A stretch of 41,908 nucleotides of DNA from Pandoraea anhela (GTDB taxonomy: Bacteria > Pseudomonadota > Gammaproteobacteria > Burkholderiales > Burkholderiaceae), in the NCBI RefSeq assembly GCF_902459655.1, contig NZ_CABPSB010000031.1, positions 1 through 41,908 on the forward strand, given 5' to 3'. The translations under genes and the position numbers were made by a program. The notes beneath the pieces are model-generated. The model was not told the origin of the DNA and ran no database searches. It was given only the letters and a program-made list of their open reading frames with translations. This document shows, piece after piece, positions 22,293 to 40,497 of this stretch; the first letter of the stretch is position 1, and every line of letters starts with the position of its first letter.

Positions 22293-22341
22293 TGCGTAAT
22301 ACCTGATGCGTAATGGGTAGTGGGTAGTGGGTAGTGGGTAA
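22293..22341. repeat. Heptamer tandem repeat, seven units
   Basis: Seven consecutive 7-base units, five or six of them of the form TG(C/G)GTA(A/G), run from 22293 to 22341. Three in the middle are identical (TGGGTAG). They lie in the 96-base gap between an aldehyde dehydrogenase gene and the aminotransferase gene behind it, so a transcript of both genes would include them. Confidence 0.9.
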
Positions 22342-22352
22342 TGCCGGGGCAA

Positions 22353-23828: not shown

Positions 23829-23971
23829 CGGCAATCTCCTGACATGGCGTTCGTTCGTCATGTGGAGATTGTCGGGGGCATCGCGCCGATGCTTTTTCCG
23901 TTCGGCTGAGGCGGACGTCGCTTTTCTTCTGATTTACCGGGACGCGACCGAAAGAAACTGCCGGACGGCGT

Positions 23972-24451
23972 TCAGTCCGTGTCGACCCAGGCGGGCATGG
24001 TGTCCGTCAGGTCTTTGACGACCTTGGTGACGACATAGGTGAAATAGCGCTCGATGCCGTAGTCGGCCATGAGCAGGTCGTCGATGAAACGCTGGTAGTG
24101 GTCGATGTCGCGCGCCATTACGTGCACGATGTAGTCGACGCCGCCGCCGGTAGCGTGGCATTGCACGACTTCCTGCGCGTCTCGCAATCGCGCCTCGAAG
24201 CGGTTCATGTCGTGGGCGGTGTGACGCGCGAGAGTGATCTCCACGATGATGCGGCTGACCTGCACCACGCCGCTCCAGTCGACGTCGGCGCGATAGCCGC
24301 GAATGACGCCCGCGGCTTCCAGACGTTGCACGCGCTCCCAGGTAGGCGAGACGGACAAATGGATGCACTCCGCCAGACGGGACTTCGTGATGCGGCCTTC
24401 GCGCGCCAGCACACGAAGGATTGCGATGTCGAAACGGTCGAGTTTCACCAT
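23972..24451 (-). CDS. Lrp/AsnC-family transcriptional regulator (DoeX-like)
   Basis: A 159-residue regulator of standard length. Residues 1-60 form the AsnC helix-turn-helix (DRFDIAILRVLAREGRITKSRLAECIHLSVSPTWERVQRLEAAGVIRGY) and residues 65-150 the RAM/AsnC ligand-binding domain (VQCHATGGGVDYIVHVMARDIDHYQRFI). Members bind amino acids or related amines and form octamers. The SPTW form of the recognition helix and its place between a DoeB-like deacylase and GabD/SpuC-like genes recall DoeX, the regulator of ectoine degradation genes. No clear Shine-Dalgarno is seen before the ATG. Likely target: the dehydrogenase/aminotransferase run downstream, and itself. Confidence 0.88.
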   Translation of the reverse strand: MVKLDRFDIAILRVLAREGRITKSRLAECIHLSVSPTWERVQRLEAAGVIRGYRADVDWSGVVQVSRIIVEITLARHTAHDMNRFEARLRDAQEVVQCHATGGGVDYIVHVMARDIDHYQRFIDDLLMADYGIERYFTYVVTKVVKDLTDTMPAWVDTD

Positions 24452-25609: not shown

Positions 25610-26560
25610 TCAGTATCCCCGCGCCAGATCGACGTTGCCGGGAATCTGCCCCGTTGCCCGAAAGGCGCGGATGTTCGCGGCGATCACCTGCGCCGCCGTT
25701 TCATGATCGGTGGGGGCGGAGATGTGCGGCAGGACCGTTACATGCGGGTGGTCCCAAAGCGACGAATCGATGGGCAGCGGTTCGACGTCGAACACGTCGA
25801 GCACGGCGTGCGAGAGATGCCCCCGGTCGAGCGCATCGAGCAAGGCATTCGTCACCACGACCGGGCCGCGCGAGAAGTTGATGAGCGCAGCGCCTTGCTT
25901 CATCCGGCCAAGGCGCACGGCGTCGAGCATGCTGCGCGTTTGCGGTGTGAGCGGAATCAGGCTGACGACGATATCGCTCGTGGCGAGCATGAGGTCCAGC
26001 CCGTCTTGCCCGGAGAGCGTCTCAACGCCGTCGAGCGTCTTCGGCGAGCGGCTCCACCCACACACGACGAAACCCGCCTCGCGCAAGCGCATCGCCGCCG
26101 CTTGCCCGAGTTCGCCGAGGCCGAGCAGGCCCACGCTCGTCTGCGACGGTTTGCGGTAGGGCTGTTGCACCCATACGCGTTGCGTCTGCTGACGCGCGTA
26201 GCGAGGCATGTCGCGTTGCAGGTAATAAGTCCAGGCGAGCACGGCCTCGGCCATGGTGCGGGACATCTCCGGATCCACGAGGCGCACGATCGGTGGGCTA
26301 TCGGGCGCCAGCGCCGCGACCAGCGATTCCACGCCGGCCCACAGGCTCTGGATCCACCGCAGGCCGGGCAGCGCTGCCACATCCGCCGGATCCGGATTCG
26401 CGACGATGGCGATGGCGGCCTGCGCACGCTGCGATGCGGACAACTGCGCGAGCGGCGCCACGATCTCGCCGGGAAGCGCGGCACGCAGCGCGTCGAGATA
26501 CGGGCGCTGGTAGTGCGCGGACATCCGGCTCAGGAAGGCGATGACGGGCGGCGTTGTCAT
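25610..26560 (-). CDS. D-2-hydroxyacid dehydrogenase, GhrA-like
   Basis: A 316-residue NAD(P)-dependent oxidoreductase interconverting 2-oxo acids and D-2-hydroxy acids (glyoxylate/hydroxypyruvate reductase A type). The nucleotide-binding motif is GLLGLGELGQAAA. The catalytic triad appears as Arg in NFSRGPVV, Glu in DVFDVEPLP and His in LPHISAPT. Length and the FDVEPL/ISAPT forms are those of GhrA. The ATG is six bases after the stop of the AA_synth gene and the stop is two bases before the DoeB-like start, so these three genes form a tight operon. Its role here is unclear: possibly removal of glyoxylate or another 2-oxo acid produced by the pathway. Confidence 0.86.
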   Translation of the reverse strand: MTTPPVIAFLSRMSAHYQRPYLDALRAALPGEIVAPLAQLSASQRAQAAIAIVANPDPADVAALPGLRWIQSLWAGVESLVAALAPDSPPIVRLVDPEMSRTMAEAVLAWTYYLQRDMPRYARQQTQRVWVQQPYRKPSQTSVGLLGLGELGQAAAMRLREAGFVVCGWSRSPKTLDGVETLSGQDGLDLMLATSDIVVSLIPLTPQTRSMLDAVRLGRMKQGAALINFSRGPVVVTNALLDALDRGHLSHAVLDVFDVEPLPIDSSLWDHPHVTVLPHISAPTDHETAAQVIAANIRAFRATGQIPGNVDLARGY

Positions 26561-26566
26561 GCTCGA

Positions 26567-27217
26567 TCAGGCGGTGGTGGCGGAAGTGGTGGAGGTGGCC
26601 GTGGCGGCGGCATCGTTCGCCATTTCTTCCATGTCCTGGAAGCGGTCGGCGATACGCGGGTGCACGCGTCCGCCGTCCGAGGCGCCGATGGCCAGCAGGA
26701 TCTCGTCCGGTGCGGGCGCGTCGGTCATCTGGAACGTGGCCGTAATGAAGTGCGACCGCTTGCCCGTCTCCGACTTGTGGATCATGGGCACCGAGACCAG
26801 CGTGCCGGGACCGACGCGGGTGTTCGTGAACGGCAGGAACGCCGTGCCGTTCACCGCATTGCGGAACAGGTTGCCGAAGCGCAGCGTGTGGATGATCGCC
26901 GATGCGTGCTCGATTTCCCCACTCGTGCCGACAACGGCCGCCTTGCCGTATGCCTCCACCCGCTCGCCGGGAATGACCTCGACCAGACGTTGCGTCATCA
27001 GCGCACCGAGTTCCGGCGCGAGCCGAAGGATCTCGGGACGCAGGTTTTCCACGAACCCCTGATCGGCCCACGGATTGCGGATCACGGCGGCGACGACGAC
27101 CGTCGTCACCGGCGTCTCGGCCGCCTTGCCGCCTTCACGATAAGTGGTCTCGACATACGTTGCGATCTTGCGAAGCGCTTGTTTCACGGGTGTCTCCTGT
27201 TGCACTGCAATAGCCAT
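26567..27217 (-). CDS. AA_synth family protein (DUF1185, PF06684)
   Basis: A 216-residue protein of the amino acid synthesis family PF06684. Recognisable blocks are RKIATYVETTYREGG, VVVAAVIRNPWADQGFVENL, AYGKAAVVGTSGEIEHASAIIHTLRFGNLFR and MTDAPAPDEILLAIGASDGGRVHPRI. Structures are known for the family but no reaction is firmly assigned. It is commonly found near flavin monooxygenase catabolic genes. The ATG at 27217 matches the usual family N-terminus; an in-frame ATG 15 bases upstream is an alternative. It heads a minus-strand operon divergent from the GAF-PucR regulator, sharing a control region with three TCTTCCG half-sites. The last 18 residues are an Ala/Thr-rich tail. Confidence 0.85.
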   Translation of the reverse strand: MAIAVQQETPVKQALRKIATYVETTYREGGKAAETPVTTVVVAAVIRNPWADQGFVENLRPEILRLAPELGALMTQRLVEVIPGERVEAYGKAAVVGTSGEIEHASAIIHTLRFGNLFRNAVNGTAFLPFTNTRVGPGTLVSVPMIHKSETGKRSHFITATFQMTDAPAPDEILLAIGASDGGRVHPRIADRFQDMEEMANDAAATATSTTSATTA

Positions 27218-27473: not shown

Positions 27474-28007
27474 ATGCCGGAACATCACCAACGGCTCATG
27501 GCCTTGCGCCATGTCGCCAGTCAGATCAGCAACGACGAAGACATCGAAGCATTGTTCCGCGATCTTGTGCGTGGCGCGGTGCAGCAAGGCGGCTGGGATC
27601 TCGGTTCGGTCATGAGCATCGATCTCGCGCACGGCTACGGGCTGGTGATCACGCGCTTCGAGACGAGCATGCTGCCGCAGCACGTCGAGGATCGCTGGGA
27701 ACTGGCGACCAGTCCGTCGCTCATTGCCTTGCAGACGAACGAACCCGTCTATATCCGCGACGCGCTCGAGAGCACGCAATTCCCCGGCTACCGACGTGAA
27801 GCGCACGAGCGCGGCTATCGCACGGTGCTGGTGCTGCCGATGGCCTCGCGCGACACCCAGGGGCGGCCGATGGTGCTCACAGTCGCCTCGCGCAAGGTGC
27901 GCGACGTGGGCGAAGACGATCTGACGTTCATGTCGACGGTCGTGCACCTCGGCGCGATCGCCGTAGAGCGCGCCCACCGTCAGCGCGCACAGGTCATGGC
28001 GCATTAG
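27474..28007 (+). CDS. GAF-domain N-terminal product of the interrupted regulator
   Basis: With its own ribosome binding site this 177-residue product will be made whatever happens at the stop. It contains a GAF domain (LRHVASQISNDEDIEALFRDLVRGAV through KVRDVGEDDLTFMSTVVHLGAIAVERAHR), a small-molecule-binding fold, and ends in the middle of the helix that normally links GAF to the next domain. On its own it lacks any DNA-binding part, so it could at most bind ligand or interfere with full-length protein. Confidence 0.6.
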   Translation: MPEHHQRLMALRHVASQISNDEDIEALFRDLVRGAVQQGGWDLGSVMSIDLAHGYGLVITRFETSMLPQHVEDRWELATSPSLIALQTNEPVYIRDALESTQFPGYRREAHERGYRTVLVLPMASRDTQGRPMVLTVASRKVRDVGEDDLTFMSTVVHLGAIAVERAHRQRAQVMAH

Positions 28008-28010
28008 CGG

Positions 28011-29471
28011 TTGCAACGCACGCTCGAAGCGCAGCGCACGCTGCTGGCCGACGTGCTCGCGGGCGGCTCGCTCGATCAGTTGACGTCGTCGCTGGGCGAG
28101 TTGATCGGCCGCCCGGTGCTCGTCATCGATTTCCTCGCCAATCAGTGGCATGCGTCGGCCTCACCTGTGCCCGCGCAGATGGATGACGCCGCATGGACCC
28201 GCTGGCTGAGCGGCGCGCAGGGGCGCGAACTCGGGGGTGCCGTGCGCGATGCGCTGCAACGCTACCGGCAGACTCGGCTGGACGTGCCGCTCCTGCCGCC
28301 CGGACGTCAGTCCGCTCAGACCACGGTAAGCGCGGCCATCGAGCCGCTCACGGTCGACGACGACCTCGTCGGCGCGCTGCTGACCTTCGGTGCGGAGGCG
28401 CCGGGCGACTTGCAGCAACTGCTGCTCGAGAGCGCCCGCTTCGCGTTGAGCGTTCAACTGATGCGCAGCGTCGTGCGTTTCCGGTTCGAGACGCGCACGC
28501 TGACCGAACTGTTTTTCGAGATCGTGGAGCGCCGCTGGCGCGACGAGGACGACGTGCTCGGCCGCGCCCGCCGTCTGGGCGTCACGCTCGACGCACCGCT
28601 GCGCATGATGGTCGTGGACTATCCCGACCAACGGGCGAATGCCGACGCGGGCCGCGCGGCGGGGCATCTGTCGCTGGAGAGCCATAGCACCGTCGAGTTG
28701 CTGGCGCGTCAGTTGAACGTGGCGATGCATATCGTGACGGTCGGCGGCGGTCTGGTCTGTCTGGTGCCGCAAGATGGCGCGACGGACGACGCGGCGCTCG
28801 CCCGTCTGGCACGGCGCATGAGCGAAGCCCTGGCGCGCTCGCTGGGGCGTGAGCCCATCGTCGTAATGAGCGACGTCTGCGAAGGACTGGAGCCGCTCGC
28901 GCGCGAGTGGGAGCGCTGCTGGCGCATGATCCGCGTGGCGCGCAAGTTCGGGCGCAGCGGGCCGCTGGACATGCCGGGTCTCGGGCCGTTGCCGATGCTC
29001 ATGGGCGCAGCCGATTCGTCGGATGTACATGGTTTCGTCGACGGCACCATCGGCAAGCTCGTCGAGCACGACAGGCAATCGGGATCGCCGTATCTCGAAA
29101 CGCTCGCGGAATATCTGCGCTCCGGCTGCCGCAGCCAGCCGTGCGCCGACGCGATGGGGCTGCACGTCACCACGTTGCGCTACCGGCTTGCGCGCATTCA
29201 GGAGTTGTTCGGTATCGACGTGGAGACGCCGGAGCGTCGCTTTGCGGTGGAACTTGCCATTCATCTGCATACGCTGACGAACGGAGGCAAGGGAATGCCG
29301 GCAGGCAGGGATGCCATGCCTGCCTCACCGACGACGTCATCGTCGCGCGACGCGGCGACGAAAGCCGACAAGACCGCGCCGGCCAGACGTGCGCCCGCGA
29401 CGTCTCACCTGCGTGCCGGCGGGCGCGCGGCTACGGCATCCATGAAAACCCTGCCGCGCAATCGAGAGTAA
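28011..29471 (+). CDS. PucR/CdaR-like C-terminal part of the interrupted regulator
   Basis: Downstream of the TAG the frame continues for 486 codons with the linker helix (TLEAQRTLLADVLAGG), a CdaR-like GGDEF-related middle region and the PucR helix-turn-helix near residues 375-425. The nominal TTG start four bases after the stop has no Shine-Dalgarno at a useful distance, so independent translation is doubtful unless ribosomes re-initiate. If made, this half would keep DNA binding but lose the GAF sensor. Confidence 0.5.
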   Translation: MQRTLEAQRTLLADVLAGGSLDQLTSSLGELIGRPVLVIDFLANQWHASASPVPAQMDDAAWTRWLSGAQGRELGGAVRDALQRYRQTRLDVPLLPPGRQSAQTTVSAAIEPLTVDDDLVGALLTFGAEAPGDLQQLLLESARFALSVQLMRSVVRFRFETRTLTELFFEIVERRWRDEDDVLGRARRLGVTLDAPLRMMVVDYPDQRANADAGRAAGHLSLESHSTVELLARQLNVAMHIVTVGGGLVCLVPQDGATDDAALARLARRMSEALARSLGREPIVVMSDVCEGLEPLAREWERCWRMIRVARKFGRSGPLDMPGLGPLPMLMGAADSSDVHGFVDGTIGKLVEHDRQSGSPYLETLAEYLRSGCRSQPCADAMGLHVTTLRYRLARIQELFGIDVETPERRFAVELAIHLHTLTNGGKGMPAGRDAMPASPTTSSSRDAATKADKTAPARRAPATSHLRAGGRAATASMKTLPRNRE

Positions 29472-29564: not shown

Positions 29565-30644
29565 ATGCAAGCTGTCGCCCAACAGAGCGAAAAGCCCCAG
29601 AGCGCAGTATCGGGCGCTAACCACGCTAAGCACGCTAACGATGCTAGCGGCACGCCCGGTGCTGCCGCCGGCCCGGGCACGTCCGCCCGCTCGGCCATCG
29701 ACCCGGTGGCGCTGCGCCGTGCGCTCGGCACCTTCGTGACGGGCGTGACCGTCGTCACGACACGCGATGAGGCGGGCCGCCCGCGCGGCATGACCGCGAA
29801 CTCCTTCACGTCCGTCTCGCTCGATCCGCCGCTGTTGCTCGTGTGCATCGGCAAAAGTGCGGCGAGCTATCCGGTGTTTCAGCGCACGGAGCACTTCGCG
29901 GTCAATTTGCTGCACGACGGCCAGACCGACGTGTCGAATCTGTTCGCGTCCAAATCGACGGAGAAGTTCACGACCGTGGGACACGATGTCGTTCACACGG
30001 GCGCACCGGTCCTCACCGACTGCCTGACGTGGTTCGACTGCACCATGCATCACCGCGTCGACGCGGGCGACCACGTTGTGCTGATCGGCCAGATTCAGGC
30101 GTTCGGCACGAGTCCTGCTGCGCCGCTGGGCTTTTGCCGGGGCCGCTATGCGCAGGTGAAGGACCCGTTGCCGCCGGGCTGGCTGTCGTCTCACGACATG
30201 ATCGTCGGCTATCTGATCGACGCGAACGGCAGCCTGCTGCTCGCACAGGACGGCAAGGGCGGCTGGGTGTTGCCCAGCGCGCCGCGCCGCCTCGCGAACG
30301 GGCGTCTGCCGCTCGCCGGTGGCGGTGAACTGGCGCTGGTGCCGCATGACACCTTCCTCTATTCGGTGTTCGACACGGCCGAGAACGACCCCGGGTACCT
30401 GATGTACCGGGCGCGTCTGGCCGAACCGCTCTCGCCGGACGACTTGCCGCCGAACTTCCGCTTCTTCCCGTTCGACCAGTTGCCCTTCGACGATATCGCC
30501 TCGCGCGAGATTCGTTCGATGGTGCGCCGCTACGTGCGGGAAACCGCCGGCGGCCGCTTCGGCATCTACATGGATTCCCACGACGGCGGACGCATCGCGA
30601 TGGTGAGCGACGCGCAACCGTGGACGCAACTCTCGCAAGTCTGA
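29565..30644 (+). CDS. Flavin reductase fused to a Nudix-like C-terminal region
   Basis: A 359-residue protein, about twice the normal length of a flavin reductase. Residues 1-42 are low complexity and coded by a 9-bp tandem repeat (29615-29650). Residues 45-200 are an HpaC/RutF-type NAD(P)H:flavin oxidoreductase domain (FVTGVTVVTTRDEAGRPRGMTANSFTSVSLDPPLLLVCIG, HFAVNLLHDGQ). Residues 210-359 begin VGYLIDANGSLLLAQDGKGGWVLP, which looks like a Nudix fold strand-loop region but lacks the catalytic Nudix box. The reductase should supply reduced FMN to the luciferase-like monooxygenase encoded two genes downstream. ATG 29565 is preferred over GTG 29556 because GAGGTG lies six bases before it. It starts the plus-strand catabolic run and is 15 bases ahead of the aldehyde dehydrogenase gene. 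Confidence 0.85.
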   Translation: MQAVAQQSEKPQSAVSGANHAKHANDASGTPGAAAGPGTSARSAIDPVALRRALGTFVTGVTVVTTRDEAGRPRGMTANSFTSVSLDPPLLLVCIGKSAASYPVFQRTEHFAVNLLHDGQTDVSNLFASKSTEKFTTVGHDVVHTGAPVLTDCLTWFDCTMHHRVDAGDHVVLIGQIQAFGTSPAAPLGFCRGRYAQVKDPLPPGWLSSHDMIVGYLIDANGSLLLAQDGKGGWVLPSAPRRLANGRLPLAGGGELALVPHDTFLYSVFDTAENDPGYLMYRARLAEPLSPDDLPPNFRFFPFDQLPFDDIASREIRSMVRRYVRETAGGRFGIYMDSHDGGRIAMVSDAQPWTQLSQV

Positions 30645-30659
30645 TTCTGGAGTCAACCG

Positions 30660-32171
30660 ATGCAAACGACGATGCAAACGCTGGAAGGATCGCGCCAGCA
30701 GTTGTTTATTGACGGGCAGTTCACCGCGCCGCACAGCAACGCGTACGTGCCGAGCTACGACCCGACGACCGGCCGTGCCTGGTACGAGTTCGCGCAGGCC
30801 GACGCGACGGACGTCGACCGCGCCGTGCGCTCGGCGCAAGCTGCGCTGGTCAACCCCGCATGGCGTCGCATGACGCAGACCGAGCGCGGCAAGCTCGTGC
30901 GCAAGCTCGGCGAACTGGTGCTGGCCAACGCCGACGCGCTCGCCGCCATCGAGTGTCGCGACAACGGCAAGCTGCTCAAGGAAATGAAGGCGCAGATGCG
31001 CGCGATTCCCGACGCGTATCTGTATTTCGCGGGCATGGCCGACAAGCTGCAAGGCGACACCATTCCCGTCAACAAGCTCGATACGCTGAACTTCAACACG
31101 CGCGAGCCCATCGGCGTGGTCGGCATGATCATTCCGTGGAATTCGCCGCTGATGATGCTCACAGGCACGCTCGCACCGTGTCTGGCGATCGGCAACACCA
31201 TCGTGGTGAAGCCGTCCGAGCATGCCACGGCCTCCACGCTCGCGTTGGCCGAACTGGTGATCGAAGCCGGCATTCCGCCGGGCGTCGTCAACGTGGTGAC
31301 CGGCGACGGCATCACGACCGGCGACGCGTTGACGCGTCACCCCGGCGTCGCGAAGTACGTGTTCACCGGCAGCACCGTCACCGGCCGCAAGATCGCAGGC
31401 AACGCCGCGCAAAATCTCGTGCCGTGTCAGATGGAGCTGGGCGGCAAGTCGCCGCATGTGGTGTTCGGCGACGTGGATATCGAACGCGCCGTGAACGGCG
31501 TCGTCTCGGGCGTATTCGCCGCCGCCGGGCAGACCTGTGTGGCGGGCTCGCGCTGCTTCGTGGAGGCGTCGGTCTACGACCGCTTCGTCGAGGCGCTGGT
31601 CGAGCGCACGCGTCGTGTGCGTGTCGGGCACCCCACCCACGAGGACACCGACATCGGCCCGCTGGCGCTGGCCGCGCAACTGGACAAGGTCGAAGGCTAT
31701 GTGGCCTCCGGCCTTCAGGAAGGCGCGCGCGTGGCGGCCGGCGGTCAGCGTCCCCCGCGCGAGGACCTCGCGGGCGGCTGGTACTACGAGCCGACCGTGA
31801 TGACACAGGCGCGCAACGAGATGCGCTTCATGCAGGAAGAGATTTTCGGCCCGGTGGTCGGTGTCATGCCGTTCTCCGACGAAGCCGAACTCATGGCGCT
31901 GGCGAATGCGAGCGAATACGGGCTGGCCGCCGGCGTGTGGACTCGCGACATCGACCGCGCCATGCGCTTCGCACGCGACGTGGAGGCCGGCACGGTCTGG
32001 ATCAACACCTATCGCTCGGCGGCGTACATGTCGGCCAACGGCGGCACCAAACACAGCGGCTACGGCCGGCGTGGCGGCTTCGAGGTGATGCGAGAGTTCT
32101 CGCGCCTGAAGAACGTCGTGATCGATTACTCGGGGGCTATGCAGGACCCGTTCGTGATCCGGCTGCGCTGA
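30660..32171 (+). CDS. Aldehyde dehydrogenase
   Basis: A 503-residue NAD(P)-dependent aldehyde dehydrogenase with VVGMIIPWNSPLMMLTGTLAPCL, the coenzyme loop FTGSTVTG, the general base in MELGGKSPHVVF and the nucleophile Cys in AAGQTCVAGSR. GGAG lies seven bases before the ATG. The sequence is of the betaine-aldehyde/hydroxymuconic-semialdehyde style rather than the GabD style of the two dehydrogenases in the divergent cluster. Its place between flavin reductase and luciferase-like monooxygenase genes suggests that it oxidises the aldehyde formed by ring opening, as the dehydrogenase of the trigonelline pathway does. That assignment is by context only. Confidence 0.9.
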   Translation: MQTTMQTLEGSRQQLFIDGQFTAPHSNAYVPSYDPTTGRAWYEFAQADATDVDRAVRSAQAALVNPAWRRMTQTERGKLVRKLGELVLANADALAAIECRDNGKLLKEMKAQMRAIPDAYLYFAGMADKLQGDTIPVNKLDTLNFNTREPIGVVGMIIPWNSPLMMLTGTLAPCLAIGNTIVVKPSEHATASTLALAELVIEAGIPPGVVNVVTGDGITTGDALTRHPGVAKYVFTGSTVTGRKIAGNAAQNLVPCQMELGGKSPHVVFGDVDIERAVNGVVSGVFAAAGQTCVAGSRCFVEASVYDRFVEALVERTRRVRVGHPTHEDTDIGPLALAAQLDKVEGYVASGLQEGARVAAGGQRPPREDLAGGWYYEPTVMTQARNEMRFMQEEIFGPVVGVMPFSDEAELMALANASEYGLAAGVWTRDIDRAMRFARDVEAGTVWINTYRSAAYMSANGGTKHSGYGRRGGFEVMREFSRLKNVVIDYSGAMQDPFVIRLR

Positions 32172-32216
32172 GCGGCATCCCCCAATCCATACGAATAAGT
32201 CACTGGAGATCTACCC

Positions 32217-33344
32217 ATGAAATTCTCCGTATCGCTCAGCATGGAGCGTTTCTCGCCGCAGGATACGATGACCGACGCCGTGCGCAATATGCTGCACCTC
32301 GCGCGCATCGCCGACGAAGGCGGCTTCGAGACGCTGTGGACCGCCGAGCACCACACCATCGAGTGCACCATTTCACCCAATCCGTTCATGACGCTGACGT
32401 GGCTGTCGCAGCACACCGAGCAGATTCGATTGGGCACCGCGACCATCGTCGCGCCTTACTGGTCGCCGATTCGTCTCGCGGGAGAAGCCGCGATGTGCGA
32501 TCACCTCACGGGCGGACGTCTCGAATTCGGTATCGCACGCGGTGCATATCAGTATGAGTTCGACCGCATGGCCGGCGGCATTCCGCAGCAGGAAGGTGTC
32601 GCGTACATGAAGGAACTCGTGCCCGCGGTGAAGAAGCTGTGGGAGGGCGACTATGCCCACGACGGGCATTACTGGAAGTTTCCGCTCGCCACGTCGGTGC
32701 CCAAGCCGCTGCAACAGCCGCATCCGCCGATCTGGGTCGCCACGCGCGATCCGGGCAGCTTCGATTGGGCCGTCGGTGTGGGTGCGAACATTCTCTCGAC
32801 GCCGCTCGCCGCCCCGGTGTCCGAAGTCGCCGTGCTGGGCGAGAAGTTTCGCAAGGCGGTGGCGGATCATCCGGAACGGCCGCGCCCGCGCTTCATGATG
32901 CTGCGCCGCACGTGCGTGTACGACCGCCCGCAGGACTGGGAAGTCGCCGTGCGTCACAGCGTGGACTTCGGCCGCACGTTCGAGAACCTGATGCAGAACA
33001 TCGGCACCGTGACCAACGGGTTTCCCGAAGCCGTGCCTTACGAGGCGGTTGTCGGGCGCGCCAATTACGATCCGGCCGCGATTCGCGAGAACCTGATGTT
33101 CGGCACGCCCGACGAGATCGTGCGTAAGCTGGAAGTGTATGAAGCGCAGGGCGTCGACCAGTTCTGCCTTGGCCTGTCGTTCAACTTGCCGTTCGAATTG
33201 CAGGTGAAGACGTTGCGCCTGTTCATCGACGAAGTGATGCCGCATTTCGCCGCGCGTGAGGCACGGCGGGCCAGGGAAGCACAATCGGCGGCCGAGGCCC
33301 GGACGGCCGAGCGTCCGGCGGCGCTGGCATCGGTGGGCCGCTGA
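32217..33344 (+). CDS. LLM-class flavin-dependent monooxygenase
   Basis: A 375-residue bacterial-luciferase-like enzyme using reduced FMN and O2. It begins MKFSVSLSMERFSP and has the TIM-barrel family blocks LARIADEGGFETLWTAEHHTI, RLGTATIVAPYWSPIRLAGEAAMCDHLTGGRLEFGIARG, PHPPIWVATRDPGSFDWAV and YEAQGVDQFCLGLSFNLPFELQVKTLRLF. GGAG lies eight bases before the ATG. Related two-component enzymes (RutA, pyridine and trigonelline monooxygenases) open N-heterocyclic rings. The gene neighbours supply flavin reductase, aldehyde dehydrogenase, hydrolase and a betaine-type importer, so a ring-opening step on an imported N-heterocycle is the best reading. The substrate cannot be decided from sequence. 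Confidence 0.9.
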   Translation: MKFSVSLSMERFSPQDTMTDAVRNMLHLARIADEGGFETLWTAEHHTIECTISPNPFMTLTWLSQHTEQIRLGTATIVAPYWSPIRLAGEAAMCDHLTGGRLEFGIARGAYQYEFDRMAGGIPQQEGVAYMKELVPAVKKLWEGDYAHDGHYWKFPLATSVPKPLQQPHPPIWVATRDPGSFDWAVGVGANILSTPLAAPVSEVAVLGEKFRKAVADHPERPRPRFMMLRRTCVYDRPQDWEVAVRHSVDFGRTFENLMQNIGTVTNGFPEAVPYEAVVGRANYDPAAIRENLMFGTPDEIVRKLEVYEAQGVDQFCLGLSFNLPFELQVKTLRLFIDEVMPHFAAREARRAREAQSAAEARTAERPAALASVGR

Positions 33345-33347
33345 CTC

Positions 33348-34229
33348 ATGGGGGCGCACGCTATGACCGAACCGCCCGACGTCCCGCGCGAGCAAACGCT
33401 GCAAGTGGGCGACGTGACGCTGGCCTACCGCCTGCTCGGACGCGGCACGCGACCGCTCGTCTGCATTCACGGCGTGGGGTCGTATCAGGAGGCATGGGAC
33501 GATGTGGCGGCCTTGCTGGCCGATGACTTTCGCATCCTCACTTTCGATCTGCGCGGCCATGGTCGCTCATCGCGGGTCCGGGGCCGCTACGAAATCGACG
33601 ATTTCGTCGCCGATGCGCTGGCGCTCGCGGATCACGTGGGGTTCACCACTTTCGATCTGGCGGGCTTTTCACTGGGCGGGCTGATCGCGCAACGGCTGGC
33701 GTTGTCGCATCCGGCGCGCCTGCGTCGCCTGGCGTTGCTCGCGACCGTGTCGGGCCGTACCAAAGAAGAGCGCGAGCGTGTGCTGGCACGGCTCGCCGCG
33801 TTGCAGGGCGGTGAGCGTGGCGCGCATTACGACGCGTCGCTCTCGCGCTGGCTGACGGAGGACTTTCAGGCGAAGCATCCCGAGCGCATCGCATACCTGC
33901 GCGAGCGCAATGCGCAGAACGATCCGGATTGTTATGCGTCCGCCTATCGCGTGCTGGCGGAGACCGATTTCGGTGGCTTCATCGATCAGATCCGCATGCC
34001 GACGCTCATCGTGACCGGTGAAGACGATCAGGGCTCGAACCCGCGCATGGCGCGCTTCATGCAGGAGTGCATCGTGGGCTCGCGCCTGGAGATCCTGCCG
34101 GGCATGCGGCATTCGATTCTCGTCGAGGCGGCGACGCAGGTCGCGGCACTCCTGCGCGAGTTTCTGGGGGCGGACCTCCCGGCCGTGGCGCCGCCGGGCA
34201 GCGGCGGTGGCAAGAGGAGCGCAGCATGA
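33348..34229 (+). CDS. Alpha/beta hydrolase
   Basis: A 293-residue alpha/beta-fold hydrolase with oxyanion block HGVGSYQEAW, nucleophile Ser108 in AGFSLGGLIAQ, acid residue near LIVTGEDDQGSNP and His255 in GMRHSILVEA, so the catalytic triad is complete. The general appearance is of the RutD/3-oxoadipate enol-lactonase group, which hydrolyses amides, carbamates or lactones in ring-cleavage pathways. The start may be 33348 or the in-frame ATG at 33363, which has a G-rich site eight bases upstream. The stop overlaps the NIPSNAP start as ATGA, so the two are translationally coupled. Confidence 0.87.
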   Translation: MGAHAMTEPPDVPREQTLQVGDVTLAYRLLGRGTRPLVCIHGVGSYQEAWDDVAALLADDFRILTFDLRGHGRSSRVRGRYEIDDFVADALALADHVGFTTFDLAGFSLGGLIAQRLALSHPARLRRLALLATVSGRTKEERERVLARLAALQGGERGAHYDASLSRWLTEDFQAKHPERIAYLRERNAQNDPDCYASAYRVLAETDFGGFIDQIRMPTLIVTGEDDQGSNPRMARFMQECIVGSRLEILPGMRHSILVEAATQVAALLREFLGADLPAVAPPGSGGGKRSAA

Positions 34230-34612
34230 TCGTCGAAGAGCGCATTTATCGCATTCGCAACGGTGGCATGAGTCAGTACCTGAATCTCGTGCGCACCGAA
34301 GGGTTGGCGATCCAGCAGCCCATCCTCGGGCATCTCGTCGGGTATTTCACCACGGAGATCGGGGTACTCAGTCAGGTGACACACCTTTGGGCGTATCCGA
34401 GTCTTGACGAGCGCGCGCGCCGCCGTGCGCAACTCGCGCAGGACAAGCGCTGGCAGGCGTTCATTCCGCGTCTGTCCGAATGGATCGAAACGGCCGAGAA
34501 CCGCATTCTGGTGCCGACCGATTTTTCGCCGCTCATGGCGTTCGCGCCGCAGACGGCGCCGGCAAGGGCTTCACTGGATTCCAGCGATTTCAAGGAGATT
34601 CGCCGTGACTGA
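34226..34612 (+). CDS. NIPSNAP-family protein
   Basis: A 128-residue protein with the NIPSNAP ferredoxin-like fold pattern: MIVEERIYRIRNGGMSQYL, then LGHLVGYFTTEIGVLSQVTHLWAYPSLDERARRRAQLAQD. Members are small, often dimeric and of poorly defined biochemical role, and frequently lie in degradation operons. The ATG overlaps the hydrolase stop by four bases and has GAGGAG six bases upstream. Its own end overlaps the GTG of the next ATPase gene by eight bases. That chain of overlaps ties it firmly to the hydrolase and transporter genes. Confidence 0.83.
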   Translation: MIVEERIYRIRNGGMSQYLNLVRTEGLAIQQPILGHLVGYFTTEIGVLSQVTHLWAYPSLDERARRRAQLAQDKRWQAFIPRLSEWIETAENRILVPTDFSPLMAFAPQTAPARASLDSSDFKEIRRD

Positions 34613-35663
34613 CCGACTGAGAATCGAAAACCTTTACAAGGTGTTCGCGGACAAGCCGGCGCGAGCGCTGGCCATGTTGCGCGACGGAAAACGCAAAGCC
34701 GATGTGCTCGAGACGCTGGGCCAGGTCGTGGGACTCGACGACGTCTGCCTGACGGTGCCGTCCGGTGCGATCTACATGGTCATGGGTCTCTCCGGCTCCG
34801 GCAAATCGACGCTGGCGCGCTGCATCAACCGTCTGAACGAACCGTCCGACGGTCGTATCCTGCTCGACGGCGAAGATATCTGTGCGCTCGACGAACGGGG
34901 GCTTCGCGACGTGCGCCGCAACCGCATCTCGATGGTGTTCCAGCACTTCGCGTTGCTGCCGAACCGGCGTGTCATCGAAAACGTGGAGTTCGGCCTGAAG
35001 CTGCGCGGCATGTCGGCAGCGGCGCGTCGCCGGCGTGCGGAGGAGGTGCTGAGCGTGGTCGGTCTCGCGCGCTGGGCGTACCACATGCCGCACGAACTGA
35101 GCGGTGGCATGCGCCAGCGAGTAGGGCTGGCCCGGGCATTGGCCACGGAAGCGGACGTCCTCATCATGGACGAAGCGTTCAGCGCGCTCGACCCGCTCAT
35201 CCGCACGGAAATGCAGGACGAACTGCTGCGTCTGCAACACACGCTCAACAAGACCATTCTGTTCATCACCCACGACTTTCAGGAGGCGCTCAAGCTCGGC
35301 ACGCGCATCGCGATCATGGCGGACGGACGCCTGGTGCGCGAGGGCACGCCGCAGCAGATCGTGCTCGACCCCGGCAGCGACTACGTGGCGGCGTTTACCC
35401 GCGACGTCGACCGTGCACGTCTGTTCGATGCCCGCTCGGTGATGGCGCCCGTGCCTGCGGTGCTCGCGCAATGCGACCACCGGCTGCCGTGTGTGCCGGC
35501 GGATATGCGGTTGGTGGACGTGGCGGCGCGCTTCAATACCGAGCAAACGATGGGCGTGACGGACGACGACGGCACGCTGATCGGCGTGCTGGACGTGGGG
35601 CAGTTGCTGGCTCGTATCGGAACGGCCGGCGCGACGGTCGGTGCAGGAGAACATCATGCTTAA
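34605..35663 (+). CDS. Quaternary amine ABC transporter ATP-binding protein (ProV-like)
   Basis: A 352-residue ATPase of the glycine betaine/proline importer type. Walker A GLSGSGKST is at 61-69, the signature LSGGMRQRVGLARA at 165 onward, Walker B LIMDEAFSALD at 186-196 and the H-loop His223. The N-terminal 50 residues with NLYKVFADKPARALAML are typical of ProV/OpuAA, and the C-terminal 85 residues form a CBS-like segment that in relatives senses ionic strength. The GTG start at 34605 follows AAGGAG at seven bases and overlaps the NIPSNAP stop. The stop overlaps the permease start by eight bases. It powers uptake of a betaine-like compound across the inner membrane. Confidence 0.92.
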   Translation: MTDRLRIENLYKVFADKPARALAMLRDGKRKADVLETLGQVVGLDDVCLTVPSGAIYMVMGLSGSGKSTLARCINRLNEPSDGRILLDGEDICALDERGLRDVRRNRISMVFQHFALLPNRRVIENVEFGLKLRGMSAAARRRRAEEVLSVVGLARWAYHMPHELSGGMRQRVGLARALATEADVLIMDEAFSALDPLIRTEMQDELLRLQHTLNKTILFITHDFQEALKLGTRIAIMADGRLVREGTPQQIVLDPGSDYVAAFTRDVDRARLFDARSVMAPVPAVLAQCDHRLPCVPADMRLVDVAARFNTEQTMGVTDDDGTLIGVLDVGQLLARIGTAGATVGAGEHHA

Positions 35664-36627
35664 TATGGACGGCATCAAGGCGGATCAACTCGCAGTCTTT
35701 CCCTTCGATCAGTGGATTCAGGAGGGCGTGCAGTGGATGGCGCTGCATATGCGTCCGCTGTTCCTCGTCATCAAATGGCCGGTCGAGCGCTTGCTGACCT
35801 TCAACGACAGTGTGTTTCACGCCGCGCCGTTCCCGGTGATGGTCCTGATCGCATTTCTGTTGTGCTGGCGACTGGCCAGCCTCGGCGTTGCGGTGTTCAG
35901 CGCCATCGTCTTCGTGGCGATCGCCATGCTCGGCGTATGGAGCGAGGCGATGACGACGCTCTCGCTGATCATGACCGCCATCCTCTTCTGCGCGCTCATC
36001 GGCATACCCATCGGCATCTGGAGCGCGCGCAGCGAACGGGTGTGGCTCGTGGTGCGCCCGGTGCTCGACATCATGCAGACGACACCGACATTCGTGTATC
36101 TGGTGCCGGTGGTGATGCTGTTCGGCGTGGGCAATGTGCCGGGTGAAGTGGCCGTGGTGACGGCGGCGATGCCGCCACTCATACGCTTCACGCATCTGGG
36201 CATTCGCATGGTCGAGCATGAAATCGTCGAAGCCGGTCTCGCGTTCGGTGCGGACAAGCGTCAGTTGCTGTGGGAAGTGCAATTGCCGCTGGCGGTGCCG
36301 ACGATTCTCGGCGGTCTGAACCAGACCGTGCTCACGGCGATGGTGATGTCGGTCGTGGTGGCCATGATCGGCGCGGAGGGGCTTGGGCTCGTGGTGTTGC
36401 AGGGGCTGGGACGTCTCGATGTGGGGCGCGCGGCCGTCGGCGGCATCGCCATCGTGTTGCTCGCGATGATGCTCGATCGTTTCACGCAAAAGCTCGCTCG
36501 CACGAAGCCGCGCGATCAGCAGACGTTCCGCGCCGTCATCTCGCGGCTGTTTCGCGGAGAGCGCCAGGCTGGGGGCGACGTGGGAGGCAATGTGCCGCCG
36601 ACGGCGCGCGCGGCGGACGCGCCGTGA
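35656..36627 (+). CDS. Quaternary amine ABC transporter permease (ProW-like)
   Basis: A 323-residue inner-membrane permease with about seven hydrophobic segments. The EAA loop that contacts the ATPase is visible as EAGLAFGADKRQLLWEVQLPLAVPTILGG, and TPTFVYLVPVVMLFGVGNVPG is a typical ProW block. The ATG at 35656 follows AGGAG at six bases and overlaps the ATPase stop. The start at 35641 is rejected for lack of a site. The last 45 residues are polar and Arg/Ala-rich. A 200-base gap without a gene separates it from the binding-protein gene. Confidence 0.92.
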   Translation: MLNMDGIKADQLAVFPFDQWIQEGVQWMALHMRPLFLVIKWPVERLLTFNDSVFHAAPFPVMVLIAFLLCWRLASLGVAVFSAIVFVAIAMLGVWSEAMTTLSLIMTAILFCALIGIPIGIWSARSERVWLVVRPVLDIMQTTPTFVYLVPVVMLFGVGNVPGEVAVVTAAMPPLIRFTHLGIRMVEHEIVEAGLAFGADKRQLLWEVQLPLAVPTILGGLNQTVLTAMVMSVVVAMIGAEGLGLVVLQGLGRLDVGRAAVGGIAIVLLAMMLDRFTQKLARTKPRDQQTFRAVISRLFRGERQAGGDVGGNVPPTARAADAP

Positions 36628-36827
36628 CGTCGCCCGCCGACATTGATACATCGCGGGTTTTCGTCGCCACGTTTTGACGCACCGTGTTGAGTTGCAACGC
36701 GTTTGGCAGTACCGCAGCACCGGTCACGACGATGATGTCGCGGGCCGGCACCCGTGCCCGCAGGCGGACGTCCGGCGGGCCGATAACTCGACGATCGGAA
36801 AGATCGAACAAGTCTTGGAGAGCAGCA

Positions 36828-37859
36828 ATGAAAGGATTTGCAAAGGCGATCGCCTCGTTCACGCTTTCGCTGGTCGCAGCGGGCGCGACAGGCATGGTGA
36901 GCGCGCAGACGCTTCCGGGCACGGGAAAGACGATTCGTTATGCGCAGAGCGACAGCTTCGGCGGTAACTACGTTGTCGCCCAGATTGTCTCGAAGGCGTT
37001 CAAGGGGCTGGGCTACGACGTCAAGCTCAGCACGATGAACACGACGCTGTTCTTCCAGGCCGTGGCGCAAGGCGATATCGATCTCGCCACCGATGTGAAC
37101 TTCCCGCAGCGCGAACCGGGTTTCCGTGCCGTGGCGGCGCAGGCCATGATCGTCGGTTCGGGGCTGATTTCGGGCGACGGCATCAACGGCTATCTGATCG
37201 ACAAGAAGACGGCGCAGCAGTATCACATCACCAGTCTCGAACAGATGAAGGATCCGAAGATCGCCGGGCTTTTCGGCAAGGACGGCAAGGCTGAGCTGAT
37301 CAGTTGCGATCCGGGCTGGAGTTGCGGCGACGTTGTGGACTATCAGATCGACAAGTTCGGTCTGAAGCAGACAGTCAAGGCGGTGCGCGGCAAGTATGAA
37401 GCGCTGATGGTCGAGGCGGTGACGAAGGTGAGGCAGGGCAAGCCGGCGTTCTTTTACGCGTGGAGTCCGTCCTGGGTGACGAACGCGCTCGTGCCGGGTG
37501 TGGACGTGGTGTGGCTGCCGACACCCGCCGATGCGCTGCCGCCGAACGTACCGAACAAGGGCTCGGCGCTCGTGAACAACGTGGAGGGATGCGCGGGCGG
37601 CGCGAACCCGTGCCGCATGGCGATGGCGTCGTGGAACTGGGGATCGGTGGCGAATAAGCAGTTCATCGCCGCGAATCCGGCCGCCAAGGCGCTGATCGAG
37701 CAAATCCATTTCCCTGGCAAGACGTGGTCTCAGTGGGAAGCGGTCATCAGCAAGGAAGGCGGTTCGCCCGCGCTGATTACGAAACTGTCGGACGAATGGA
37801 TCGCCGCCAACAAGGCGCAGATGGATCAGTGGGTGGCAACGGCGGCCAAGGCGAAGTGA
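36828..37859 (+). CDS. Periplasmic betaine/quaternary amine-binding protein (ProX-like)
   Basis: A 343-residue OpuAC/ProX-type solute-binding protein. MKGFAKAIASFTLSLVAAGA followed by a VSA cleavage site after residue 26 is a Sec signal peptide. The mature part has RYAQSDSFGGNYVVAQIVSKAF and tryptophan/tyrosine positions in CDPGWSCG and FFYAWSPSWV that suggest an aromatic cage for a cationic ligand; two pairs of cysteines (CDPGWSC, CAGGANPC) could form disulfides. GGAG lies seven bases before the ATG. It delivers the substrate to the ProVW-like pair. The ligand could be an N-methylated heterocycle or an aliphatic betaine; sequence alone does not decide. Confidence 0.92.
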   Translation: MKGFAKAIASFTLSLVAAGATGMVSAQTLPGTGKTIRYAQSDSFGGNYVVAQIVSKAFKGLGYDVKLSTMNTTLFFQAVAQGDIDLATDVNFPQREPGFRAVAAQAMIVGSGLISGDGINGYLIDKKTAQQYHITSLEQMKDPKIAGLFGKDGKAELISCDPGWSCGDVVDYQIDKFGLKQTVKAVRGKYEALMVEAVTKVRQGKPAFFYAWSPSWVTNALVPGVDVVWLPTPADALPPNVPNKGSALVNNVEGCAGGANPCRMAMASWNWGSVANKQFIAANPAAKALIEQIHFPGKTWSQWEAVISKEGGSPALITKLSDEWIAANKAQMDQWVATAAKAK

Positions 37860-37873
37860 TCGGAGGATACGTG

Positions 37874-38248
37874 ATGAACCCGGAACTGTTCGAGAAAGGG
37901 CTGAAGACGCGCCGTGAGGTACTGGGCAGCGAATACGTGGACAAATCGATGGCGTCGGCGGACGCCTTCAACCGGCCGATGCAGGAACTGGTGACGACGT
38001 ATTGCTGGGGCGAGATATGGAATCGGCCGGGGCTCGACCGTCGCACGCGAAGCCTGCTCAATCTGGGCATGCTCACAGTGCTGAACCGTCCGCATGAGTT
38101 GAAGCTGCATGTGCGGGGAGCGCTGACCAACGGCGTGACGAAAGAGGAAATCGCCGAGGTGTTTCTGCAAGCGGCGATCTACGCCGGCGTGCCGGCGGCG
38201 ATCGACAGCTTCCGTGTGGCGCGGGAGGTGTTCGACGCGCAGGCGTAG
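37874..38248 (+). CDS. Carboxymuconolactone decarboxylase family protein
   Basis: A 124-residue CMD-family protein close to the PcaC form: GLKTRREVLGSEYVDKSM, CWGEIWNRPGLDRRTRSLLNLGML, HELKLHVRGALTNGVTKEEIAEVFLQAAIYAGVPAA. The AhpD-type CxxC is absent, so a peroxidase role is unlikely; decarboxylation or isomerisation of a lactone-like intermediate fits the family. GGAGG lies seven bases before the ATG, 14 bases after the binding-protein stop, so it is in the same transcript. It is the last gene of the plus-strand run and is followed by a hairpin. Confidence 0.9.
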   Translation: MNPELFEKGLKTRREVLGSEYVDKSMASADAFNRPMQELVTTYCWGEIWNRPGLDRRTRSLLNLGMLTVLNRPHELKLHVRGALTNGVTKEEIAEVFLQAAIYAGVPAAIDSFRVAREVFDAQA

Positions 38249-38643: not shown

Positions 38644-40497
38644 TCAGAACGCCCAGCACGAGCAGCCGAGCGCACCCCAGAAGCCGCTCTCATCGGCCGC
38701 CGGAACGTTCGATGCCCACGCCTTGGCATGCCCGTGGCCGTGCACGCCGCACGCCGTTGCACAGGCACAATTCACGCTCACGTTCAGCACTTGCGGCCCG
38801 CGCGGGGAGTAGCCGACGCTGTGACGCGCCGGCGACCAGTCCGGCATCGCCGGCGGCAGCACCGGGGCGTGGCTGCCGAACTCGCCGTCGCCGTACACGA
38901 CCTTGCCGCCAAGCAGCGTGAGTACGGAGGTGATGTCCTGAATGTCGTCCTCCGGCACGCGAAAGTAATCCGCCGAGAGTACCGCCAGATCGGCCAGTTG
39001 CCCGACCTTTATCTGGCCCTTCTTGCCGACTTCGGACGAGAACCACGTATTCGCTTCCGTCCACAGACGCAGCGCCTCATCGCGATCGAGCAGGCTCCCC
39101 GGTGCGGCCATCCGCAGCCCGCCGACCGTCTTGCCTGTCACCAGCCAGTACAGCGAGACCCACGGGTTGTAAGAGGCGACGCGCGTGGCGTCCGTGCCCG
39201 CGCCGACTTTCACGCCGCGCTCCAGCATGCGGCGCACCGGCGGTGTGGCTTCTGCCGCTTTCGCGCCATAGCGCTCCACGAAGTATTCCCCCTGATATGC
39301 CATGCGATGCTGCACGGCGATGCCCCCGCCAAGCGCCGCAATCCGATCGATGTTGCGGTCGCTGATGGTCTCCGCGTGATCGAAGAACCAGTGCAGGCCG
39401 TCGAACGGTACCTCCCTGGCGACCTTTTCATAGACGTCGAGTGCCCGGGAGATGGTCTCGTCGTACGTCGCATGCAGGCGCCACGGCCAGCGGTTCTCCG
39501 CCAGCAGGCGCACGATCGGCGCCAGATCGTCTTCCATCGAGTCAGGCATCTCGGGCCGCGCGACGCGGAAGTCCTCGAAGTCGGCAGCGGTGTACACCAG
39601 CATTTCGCCTGCGCCGTTGTGGCGATAGAGGTCGTCACCCTGTCCGGGGCGAACCTGCTTGACCCACTGACTGAAGTCTGCGAGTTCGGCCTTCGGTTTT
39701 TGCGTGAAGAGGTTGTACGCGAGACGCACCGTCAAATGTCCCTCGCGATGCAGTTCCTCGATGATGCCGTAGTCCTCCGGGTAGTTCTGAAAGCCGCCGC
39801 CCGCGTCGATCACGCCCGTTACGCCGAGCCGGTTCACCTCGCGCATGAAATGGCGCGTGGAGTTCTTCTGGTACTCCGGCGGCAGCTTCGGGCCCTTGGC
39901 GAGCGTGGCGTAGAGAAGGGTCGCGTTGGGTTTGGCCAGCAGCAGGCCGGTGGGATTGCCCGCCGCGTCGCGCACGATCTCGCCGCCCGGCGGGTTGGGC
40001 GTGTCCTTCGTGTAGCCGACGGTGCGCAACGCCGCGCCGTTGAGGATTGCGCGGTCGTACAGGTGGAGGATGAACACCGGTGTATCGGGGGCGATGGCGT
40101 TCAGCTCGTCGATGGTCGGCAGACGCTTCTCCGCGAACTGATGTTCCGTGAAGCCCCCGACGACCCGGACCCATTGCGGCGCGGGCGTTCGGTCGACCTG
40201 CGCCTTGAGCATGCGCATGGCGTCCGCCAGGGAGCGCACGCCGTCCCAGCGAAGCTCCATGTTGTAGTTCAGGCCGCCACGAATAATGTGCATATGGCTG
40301 TCGATCAGCCCCGGAATGACGCGACGGCCCTTCAGGTCGATGACTTGCGTTTGCGGGCCGGCAAGGCGCATCACGTCGTCGCGCGTGCCCACGGCGGTGA
40401 ACGTTGCGCCGGTGAGCGCGACGGCGTCGGCCTGCGGGTTGGCGCGGTCGAGTGTGGTGAACTTGCCGTTGACCAGAATGAGGTCGGGAGTGGTCAT
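38644..40497 (-). CDS. Amidohydrolase family protein, YtcJ-like, with Cys/His-rich tail
   Basis: A 617-residue metal-dependent hydrolase. The HMH metal motif appears in IPGLIDSHMHIIRGG, and later metal or catalytic positions in RLHATYDET, HWFFDHAETISDRN and GAGTDATRVASYNPW, with the C-terminal composite domain (VGQLADLAVLSADYF). YtcJ-like enzymes hydrolyse amides, carbamates or formamides. GGAG lies six bases before the ATG. The last 45 residues are unusual: NCACATAC, then HGHGH and finally CSCW, so five cysteines and three histidines lie in a tail beyond the usual end of the family. The gene is divergent from the LuxR-type regulator across 311 bases. Confidence 0.88.
   Translation of the reverse strand: MTTPDLILVNGKFTTLDRANPQADAVALTGATFTAVGTRDDVMRLAGPQTQVIDLKGRRVIPGLIDSHMHIIRGGLNYNMELRWDGVRSLADAMRMLKAQVDRTPAPQWVRVVGGFTEHQFAEKRLPTIDELNAIAPDTPVFILHLYDRAILNGAALRTVGYTKDTPNPPGGEIVRDAAGNPTGLLLAKPNATLLYATLAKGPKLPPEYQKNSTRHFMREVNRLGVTGVIDAGGGFQNYPEDYGIIEELHREGHLTVRLAYNLFTQKPKAELADFSQWVKQVRPGQGDDLYRHNGAGEMLVYTAADFEDFRVARPEMPDSMEDDLAPIVRLLAENRWPWRLHATYDETISRALDVYEKVAREVPFDGLHWFFDHAETISDRNIDRIAALGGGIAVQHRMAYQGEYFVERYGAKAAEATPPVRRMLERGVKVGAGTDATRVASYNPWVSLYWLVTGKTVGGLRMAAPGSLLDRDEALRLWTEANTWFSSEVGKKGQIKVGQLADLAVLSADYFRVPEDDIQDITSVLTLLGGKVVYGDGEFGSHAPVLPPAMPDWSPARHSVGYSPRGPQVLNVSVNCACATACGVHGHGHAKAWASNVPAADESGFWGALGCSCWAF

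Follow-up and report, generated by a model that had tools for sequence, protein, structure and literature searches.

A conserved gene cluster of Pandoraea anhela as a candidate sister of the trigonelline (tgn) degradation system

The stretch of DNA analysed here, referred to as the window, comprises 41,908 nucleotides of contig NZ_CABPSB010000031.1 of Pandoraea anhela and is part of a 6.05 Mb genome. Its positions 29565-38248 carry, all on the plus strand, a row of nine genes which were identified by Pfam and NCBIfam profile matches and which may form the core of a degradation system for an N-heterocyclic compound. The row starts with a TgnA-like flavin reductase with a C-terminal domain (29565-30644; PF01613, E 1.5e-42), followed by an aldehyde dehydrogenase (ALDH; 30660-32171; PF00171, E 1.1e-167), a TgnB-like luciferase-like monooxygenase (LLM) of a separate clade (32217-33344; PF00296, E 9e-55), a PcaD-like alpha/beta hydrolase (33363-34229; PF00561, with NF051488 and TIGR02427 under their cut-offs) and a NIPSNAP-family protein (34226-34612; PF07978). 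Then come the genes for a predicted importer, consisting of a ProV-like ATPase (34605-35663; PF00005, with TIGR03415, NF007480 and TIGR01186 under cut-off), a ProW-like permease (35656-36627; PF00528, with NF008196 under cut-off) and a ProX-like substrate-binding protein (36828-37859; NF008334 ProX, 382 bits against a cut-off of 215). The row ends with a PcaC-like CMD-family protein (37874-38248; PF02627), which at 151.5 bits falls just short of the cut-off of 155.7 for TIGR02425 (PcaC). The successive gaps from the flavin reductase to the CMD gene are 15, 45, 18, -4, -8, -8, 200 and 14 bases. The coordinates therefore bear out the one-strand row with small gaps or overlaps that was described in the initial annotation, except for the 200 bases directly upstream of proX, the largest gap of the row. 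The closest among the loci found is that of Pandoraea capi (L001), the LLM of which is 99% identical.

Upstream of the reductase gene, and also on the plus strand, lies a gene for a regulator with a GAF domain and a PucR-type helix-turn-helix (HTH) domain (27474-29471; PF13185, PF17853, PF13556), which is divided by an in-frame stop into 27474-28007 and 28011-29471. In 71 of 74 relatives the regulator reading frame is open through the HTH domain, and the other three are flagged only within the last five codons of the stretch. With the regulator interrupted here and intact in relatives, regulation of the cluster in this strain may be disturbed. Divergent genes for AA_synth, GhrA-like and GabD-like proteins had also been proposed, and profile matches show them to be present on the minus strand. 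These start with an AA_synth protein (DUF1185, TgnF family; 26567-27217; PF06684, E 5.7e-65), whose start at 27217 or 27232 is uncertain, followed after 6 bases by a GhrA-like 2-hydroxyacid dehydrogenase (25610-26560; PF02826, with NF012013 under cut-off) and after another 2 bases by a deacylase of the DoeB family (N-acyl-diaminobutyrate deacylase; 24558-25607; TIGR02994, 494.7 bits against a cut-off of 402.7). Further along the same strand are an Lrp/AsnC regulator (23972-24451; PF01037), an ALDH resembling succinate-semialdehyde dehydrogenase (SSADH; 22353-23861; TIGR01780, 516 bits, under cut-off), a class III aminotransferase of the PRK07482 group (20871-22352, start codon uncertain; NF005684 over cut-off) and then a second such pair, namely a class III aminotransferase of the PRK05965 group (19302-20753; NF004625 over cut-off) and an SSADH-like ALDH (17780-19444, start codon uncertain; TIGR01780, 633.6 bits against a cut-off of 646.35). 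On the other side, the cluster is adjoined by a minus-strand amidohydrolase gene (38644-40497; PF07969, E 2.8e-134), homologues of which (92-95%) occur near the LLM in three loci (L001, L006, L007).

The conservation of the cluster was determined in the best 80 of 201 confirmed LLM relatives, which were obtained by a scan with the LLM protein, are not phylogenetically independent and extend at most 9 kb to each side of the LLM. Homologues were counted at an identity of at least 40%, unless a count is given as clustering of reading frames. Near the LLM, homologues of the hydrolase were found in all 80 loci, of the reductase in 79 and of the core ALDH in 76; ProW, ProX and NIPSNAP homologues occurred in 44 loci each and CMD homologues in 37, and those of the Lrp/AsnC regulator, the GhrA-like protein and the DoeB-family protein in 32, 28 and 11, respectively. 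By clustering of reading frames, the regulator family and the AA_synth family were each present in 73/80 loci; the latter count depends on the method, as it drops to 63 when coverage of more than half is demanded for a query that starts outside the gene. The hosts include Burkholderiaceae, Bosea, Bradyrhizobium, Mesorhizobium, Rhizobium, Azospirillum and others, and the core also occurs in Agrobacterium. The gene row is thus real and conserved beyond chance. Among the 76 loci that extend 6 kb or more downstream (the remaining four being too short and left out of the co-occurrence counts), NIPSNAP was present in 43 of the 44 with ProX/ProW and in none of the 32 without, i.e., it travels with the ProVWX importer inside the window clade. 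A corresponding cluster on plasmid pAt of A. fabrum C58 (ATU_RS24950-ATU_RS25005) consists of flavin reductase, ALDH, LLM, hydrolase, CMD, NIPSNAP, AA_synth and GhrA genes together with ProX, ProW, ProV and an HTH regulator; the GhrA-like gene adjoins AA_synth there as well, and the LLM (ATU_RS24990; ProX is ATU_RS24960) is 73% identical to that of the window. Homologues of the pAt genes also occur in the disarmed strain A. fabrum GV2260. Gene order and orientation differ, and no DoeB-like gene is annotated in that stretch, where the annotation gives family names only. Judged by this homology, the pAt cluster is the same system.

The gene set of the row closely resembles that of loci for trigonelline degradation. 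The trigonelline ring is opened by TgnA/TgnB (PMC8269262). TgnF is described in PMC7913881 as a homologue of a DUF1185 (AA_synth) protein that stimulates TgnE-dependent oxidation of succinic semialdehyde. Because of this homology of TgnF, the AA_synth protein of the window can be assigned to the TgnF family. Rhizobial plasmids hold a parallel module of GntR, AA_synth, hydrolase, flavin reductase, LLM, ALDH, NIPSNAP, ATP-binding cassette (ABC) importer and SSADH genes. When its LLM was used as a probe, 23 of 398 sampled genomes of the phylum matched at 1e-45, which in at least three was due to a window-type LLM (the window genome itself, G000, as well as G249 and G123). This and the other searches of sampled genomes were run at E-value limits of 1e-45, 1e-60 or 1e-120, and the absences reported apply within these samples and limits. 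Among 18 enlarged loci, AA_synth, hydrolase, ALDH and reductase were all near in 12, all except the reductase in three and only the reductase in another three. The same type of LLM also led to an Acinetobacter locus (L145; LLM 72% identical to the probe), which is part of an A. baumannii sequence entered in PLSDB as a 3.97 Mb plasmid. It contains genes for GntR, AA_synth, hydrolase, flavin reductase, LLM, ALDH, a member of the NCS1 (cytosine-permease) family (PF02133), a protein without Pfam match, an SSADH-like ALDH and CMD, and from this gene set we infer that it is a tgn locus. When 369 genomes of the class were searched with a tgn-type LLM in order to reach Acinetobacter, other LLM loci came up instead, and around an LLM gene on an Acinetobacter plasmid (H38) no partner gene is annotated.

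Compared gene by gene with L145, the window proteins are 43% (LLM), 43% (ALDH), 30% (flavin reductase) and 27% (hydrolase) identical, and identity is higher for CMD (63%), AA_synth (52%) and the SSADH-like protein encoded at 17780-19444, about 10 kb from the operon (52%). Both loci thus share a two-component pair of flavin reductase and LLM with an ALDH and an alpha/beta hydrolase in the same cluster, and members of the AA_synth (TgnF), SSADH (TgnE) and CMD families, which upholds the earlier proposal of a two-component monooxygenase acting with a dehydrogenase and a hydrolase as in the trigonelline pathway. They differ in that the window has a ProXVW importer where L145 has the NCS1 permease and the rhizobial locus L082 an ABC importer of SBP_bac_8 type, in that the regulator is of the GAF/PucR type instead of GntR, and in the linked aminotransferases and the GhrA-like dehydrogenase. 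The solved structure 3rh7 (SMa0793 of S. meliloti 1021) shares about 99% identity with the reductase of the S. meliloti tgn-type locus L081; SMa genes are located on pSymA. According to PMC4207669, S. meliloti lacking pSymA fails to grow on trigonelline. The initial annotation had further regarded CMD, NIPSNAP and the reductase fusion as foreign to known pathways. This view had to be given up, as CMD adjoins SSADH in L145, NIPSNAP is annotated in the rhizobial tgn-type loci L081, L082 and L153, as it is present in the window, and the two-domain reductase is already represented by 3rh7. Since these three features and AA_synth all occur in tgn-type loci, they were discarded as marks of an unknown pathway; from the homologies, AA_synth and CMD are not outside the tgn pathway.

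The LLM itself represents a distinct lineage. In a tree of 41 rows the window LLM sits in a clade of 16 rows with a support of 100/100, apart from the tgn-type rows, and by sequence it does not fall in the tgn-type clade of Acinetobacter and S. meliloti. The clustering proposed earlier as a check thus gave a divided answer: homology to the tgn-type LLM holds, but the window protein belongs to a separate clade and is 43% identical to that of L145. Comparison of 84 window-type and 36 tgn-type rows, clades that were set by identity thresholds to the window or L145 and in which some loci are counted twice, identified 37 clade-diagnostic positions. These include the residues after a common EHH, which is followed by TIEC in 79/84 window-type rows (EHHTIEC) and by [GAC]M.F in 36/36 tgn-type rows (EHH[GAC]M.F). 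A further LLM clade with the motif EHHAMEY was seen in Gammaproteobacteria (L124, L125, L126, L127), with an NCS1 permease, SBP_bac_8-type ABC genes and a ribBA-like gene nearby, and an LLM of EHHGMQF type (L123) likewise has a ribBA-like gene in its locus.

Both LLM types occur together in 14 of 49 window-type genomes (taken from 50, without that of L010), in which the second LLM shares 59-84% identity with the L145 protein. In R. etli CFN 42 the two clusters are both complete and lie on p42f (window type) and p42c (tgn type). In Caballeronia arvi, a single 65 kb contig (L146, 10.4-16 kb; L008) contains three LLM genes of the types compared here, with identities to L145 of 84%, 60% and 42%, and a fourth (83% to L145) is located on another contig. 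The retention of two types in the same genome suggests different substrates, with redundancy as a possible alternative. More distant LLM enzymes were considered and rejected. RutA has an end branch of 6.9 changes per column in the tree, and the window LLM scores 45.5 bits against a cut-off of 279.7 for TIGR03860, the profile of the wider group that includes RutA. A special kinship with the Rut pathway is therefore not retained: the window shares its logic of LLM, flavin reductase and RutD-like hydrolase, but families of RutB or RutC type are not among the Pfam matches of the cluster genes. A grouping with alkanesulfonate monooxygenases, which would have spoken against the proposed function, was likewise not observed, as SsuD has an end branch of 10 and TIGR03565 gives 31.1 bits (cut-off 518.2).

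For the importer, a ProX-type aromatic cage had been predicted. The binding protein belongs to the ProX family by its NF008334 score and aligns with E. coli ProX (1r9l, E 2.3e-50), and two cage tryptophans, Trp164 and Trp212, are invariant in 53/53 aligned sequences. The prediction fails for the third tryptophan, which is absent in 53/53, residue 92 being Phe in 45, Met in five and Leu in three; the cage of E. coli ProX consists of W65, W140 and W188. The importer thus resembles ProU (ProVWX) in its ProX match over the NCBIfam cut-off and two retained tryptophans, and differs from it in the substitution of the third and in its position within a catabolic operon. In 33/80 loci the cluster has instead SBP_bac_3 binding proteins of amino-acid type. 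In 36 rhizobial proteins of this type, Trp46 is present in 34 and Trp84 in 35, Arg109 occupies the carboxylate site in all 36, and Ser or Thr stands at the position of the alpha-amine Asp in 34; in the ProX count some loci give two copies, and in both the ProX and SBP_bac_3 counts a few copies may be unlinked to the cluster. Both binding proteins fit a flat or cationic carboxylate rather than an alpha-amino acid. Because of the ProX family and the tryptophans kept in two unrelated binding proteins, betaine-type import is plausible, with a quaternary betaine as plausible ligand.

The other cluster proteins were compared with known motifs and structures. The flavin reductase model (mean predicted local distance difference test, pLDDT, 70) has its best match by E-value in 3rh7 (1.3e-26), with 33% identity over 303 columns but a template-modelling (TM) score of only 0.39-0.49, the model being only fair. 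The C-terminal domain is present in 37/37 aligned relatives, which were chosen for a coverage of at least 75%, and short one-domain reductases exist in some loci, e.g., in L126 (166 aa). On M. amorphae pM0123d (L084, 6208-7995), alpha/beta hydrolase and flavin reductase are annotated as one gene, with homology in both halves. The window ALDH has the motifs ELGGKSP at residue 259 and GQTC at residue 290, and the hydrolase has the nucleophile elbow GFSLGG at residue 101. NIPSNAP has its best solved relative in AGR_pAT_315 (1vqy, E 6.4e-47). The AA_synth model matches 3byq and 2qtp; below 0.001, the fold search gave known DUF1185 structures only and lent no support to a role similar to RidA/RutC.

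The minus-strand genes are reminiscent of ectoine degradation (Doe/Eut), as the window contains the DoeB-family, Lrp, SSADH-like ALDH and class III aminotransferase genes in an order like that of doeBXCD. Unlike in the Doe pathway, the window genome has no match at 1e-10 to DoeA, the ectoine hydrolase (TIGR02993). In a survey of 200 Burkholderiaceae genomes, the DoeB-family matches formed a top band of 35 genomes (535-575 bits), in all 35 of which DoeA was over the cut-off, and a middle band of eight genomes (484-496 bits), all of them Pandoraea and all LLM-positive, with weaker paralogues beneath. Within Pandoraea, the middle-band protein occurred in 8/10 LLM-positive vs 0/13 LLM-negative genomes (Fisher p 9e-5, kinship ignored), and at 1e-60 no Pandoraea genome was among the DoeA matches. 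As the middle band is confined to LLM-positive Pandoraea without DoeA, the deacylase belongs with the LLM cluster there and not with ectoine hydrolysis. Two LLM-positive genomes outside Pandoraea (G436, G570) gave no DoeB or DoeA match at 1e-60, and the gene is mostly a Pandoraea addition to the cluster. With a DoeB-like gene near the LLM in only 11 of the 80 loci, ectoine was discarded as a general product. Orthologues of the aminotransferases (57-77%) lie near the LLM in 12/80 loci of Bosea, Paraburkholderia, Rhodoferax, Methylocapsa, Rhizobium and Ensifer, those of the PRK07482 group (57-61%) in nine and those of the PRK05965 group (57-77%) in three (L022, L023, L035); the window-type cluster on R. 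etli p42f also has annotated aminotransferases. An amine product is suggested by the linked aminotransferases and, in Pandoraea, by the DoeB-like deacylase that occurs there in the absence of DoeA.

The observed gene content, conservation, homology to tgn-type loci, separate LLM clade and importer families allow the individual reactions, their order and the substrate class to be proposed by analogy with the reactions of the tgn pathway, the products of which include succinic semialdehyde, formate and methylamine. A small N-heterocycle, either zwitterionic or cationic, would be taken up by the ProXVW-type ABC importer. The flavin reductase would hand reduced flavin to the LLM, which would open the ring with O2, and the resulting aldehyde (or lactol) would be oxidised by the ALDH. 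The PcaD-like hydrolase may then cut an N-acyl or lactone product, and a C4 product would be converted to succinate by the SSADH-like enzymes, with the TgnF-like AA_synth protein assisting. CMD and NIPSNAP may be accessory proteins, perhaps acting on a lactone. Release of a primary amine, to be handled by the linked class III aminotransferases, is likely. We therefore favour, at a probability of roughly 0.57, the reading that the cluster is a sister of tgn which carries out the oxidative ring opening of another N-heterocyclic zwitterion; trigonelline itself is probably not the substrate, but a related ring compound. More tentatively, and at somewhat less than even odds, this may be extended to a second N-heterocycle-opening pathway of plant-associated Proteobacteria, on chromosomes and plasmids, that parallels tgn for a non-trigonelline zwitterion, in which two unrelated binding-protein families converged on a two-tryptophan pocket, the amine exits via aminotransferase and SSADH, and a DoeB-type deacylase took over the N-acyl intermediate in Pandoraea.

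Several observations weigh against a sister pathway for a different zwitterion. The two LLM classes are not cleanly divided: 18 LLM rows belong to neither set, and the LLM of L133/L138 is intermediate (55% to the window, 49% to L145, motif EHHTIEF) and lies in a GntR/ABC locus of tgn-type layout. The core ALDH is absent beside the LLM in L028-L031, and among the 76 loci with room downstream both NIPSNAP and CMD were found in 18, NIPSNAP only in 25, CMD only in 19 and neither in 14. The third tryptophan of the ProX cage is missing throughout, the linked aminotransferases are not simply reconciled with an N-methyl ring, and tgn is connected with the window by way of an A. baumannii locus and pSymA of S. 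meliloti, not by the tgn sequences of A. baylyi. In addition, 35/49 genomes carry the window type alone, with no LLM of at least 59% identity to L145 at the cut-offs used, and could therefore use it for trigonelline; in the window genome, the window LLM is the sole match at 1e-45. These distributions and the common core gene set would suit a divergent but isofunctional trigonelline pathway with exchanged importer and regulator. We consider this rather unlikely, given the 14/49 genomes with both LLM types, the 37 positions that differ between the clades, including the residues after EHH, the different binding-protein families and the linked aminotransferases.

The aminotransferase orthologues, the DoeB-family gene within the Pandoraea AA_synth operon with its restriction to LLM-positive genomes, and the lack of DoeA matches in the genome and the genus would also agree with a non-quaternary N-heterocyclic acid as substrate, e.g., an ectoine-like cyclic amidine or a pyridine carboxylate. 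Ring opening would then give an N-acyl amine, from which deacylation, transamination and oxidation would lead to a dicarboxylate; ehuAB lies a few genes downstream of the cluster on R. etli p42f. The rarity of DoeB-family homologues, their absence from G436 and G570 at the limit used, and the ProX family and lost alpha-amine Asp, which suit a betaine, make this explanation unlikely. Finally, the LLM may act on an aliphatic betaine, e.g., gamma-butyrobetaine or carnitine, and split its C-N bond, yielding an amine and a semialdehyde for the ALDH. Cleavage of C-N bonds is known from LLM enzymes such as NtaA, the importer is of ProX type, and the best NCBIfam match of the ALDH is betaine aldehyde dehydrogenase (BADH), under the cut-off. 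As this would account neither for the PcaD-like hydrolase, CMD and AA_synth nor for the correspondence with tgn-type loci gene by gene, we regard it as highly improbable.

In open-licence PubMed Central literature, judged by titles and listing text, no description of a window-type cluster was found, and neither was a paper on homarine catabolic genes, judged by title and the start of the abstract. Root bacteria feed on betaines and pyridinium compounds, which are metabolites of plants and coffee, and tgn is the reported route for trigonelline. The proposed sister relationship makes an otherwise vague annotation testable with a small set of candidate substrates, and the cluster could help to assign functions to DUF1185, NIPSNAP and CMD proteins that are already known as structures. 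Since such a sister cluster has an importer of its own and is present in the standard strains A. fabrum C58 and R. etli CFN 42, it could lead to a further nutrient from root exudates.

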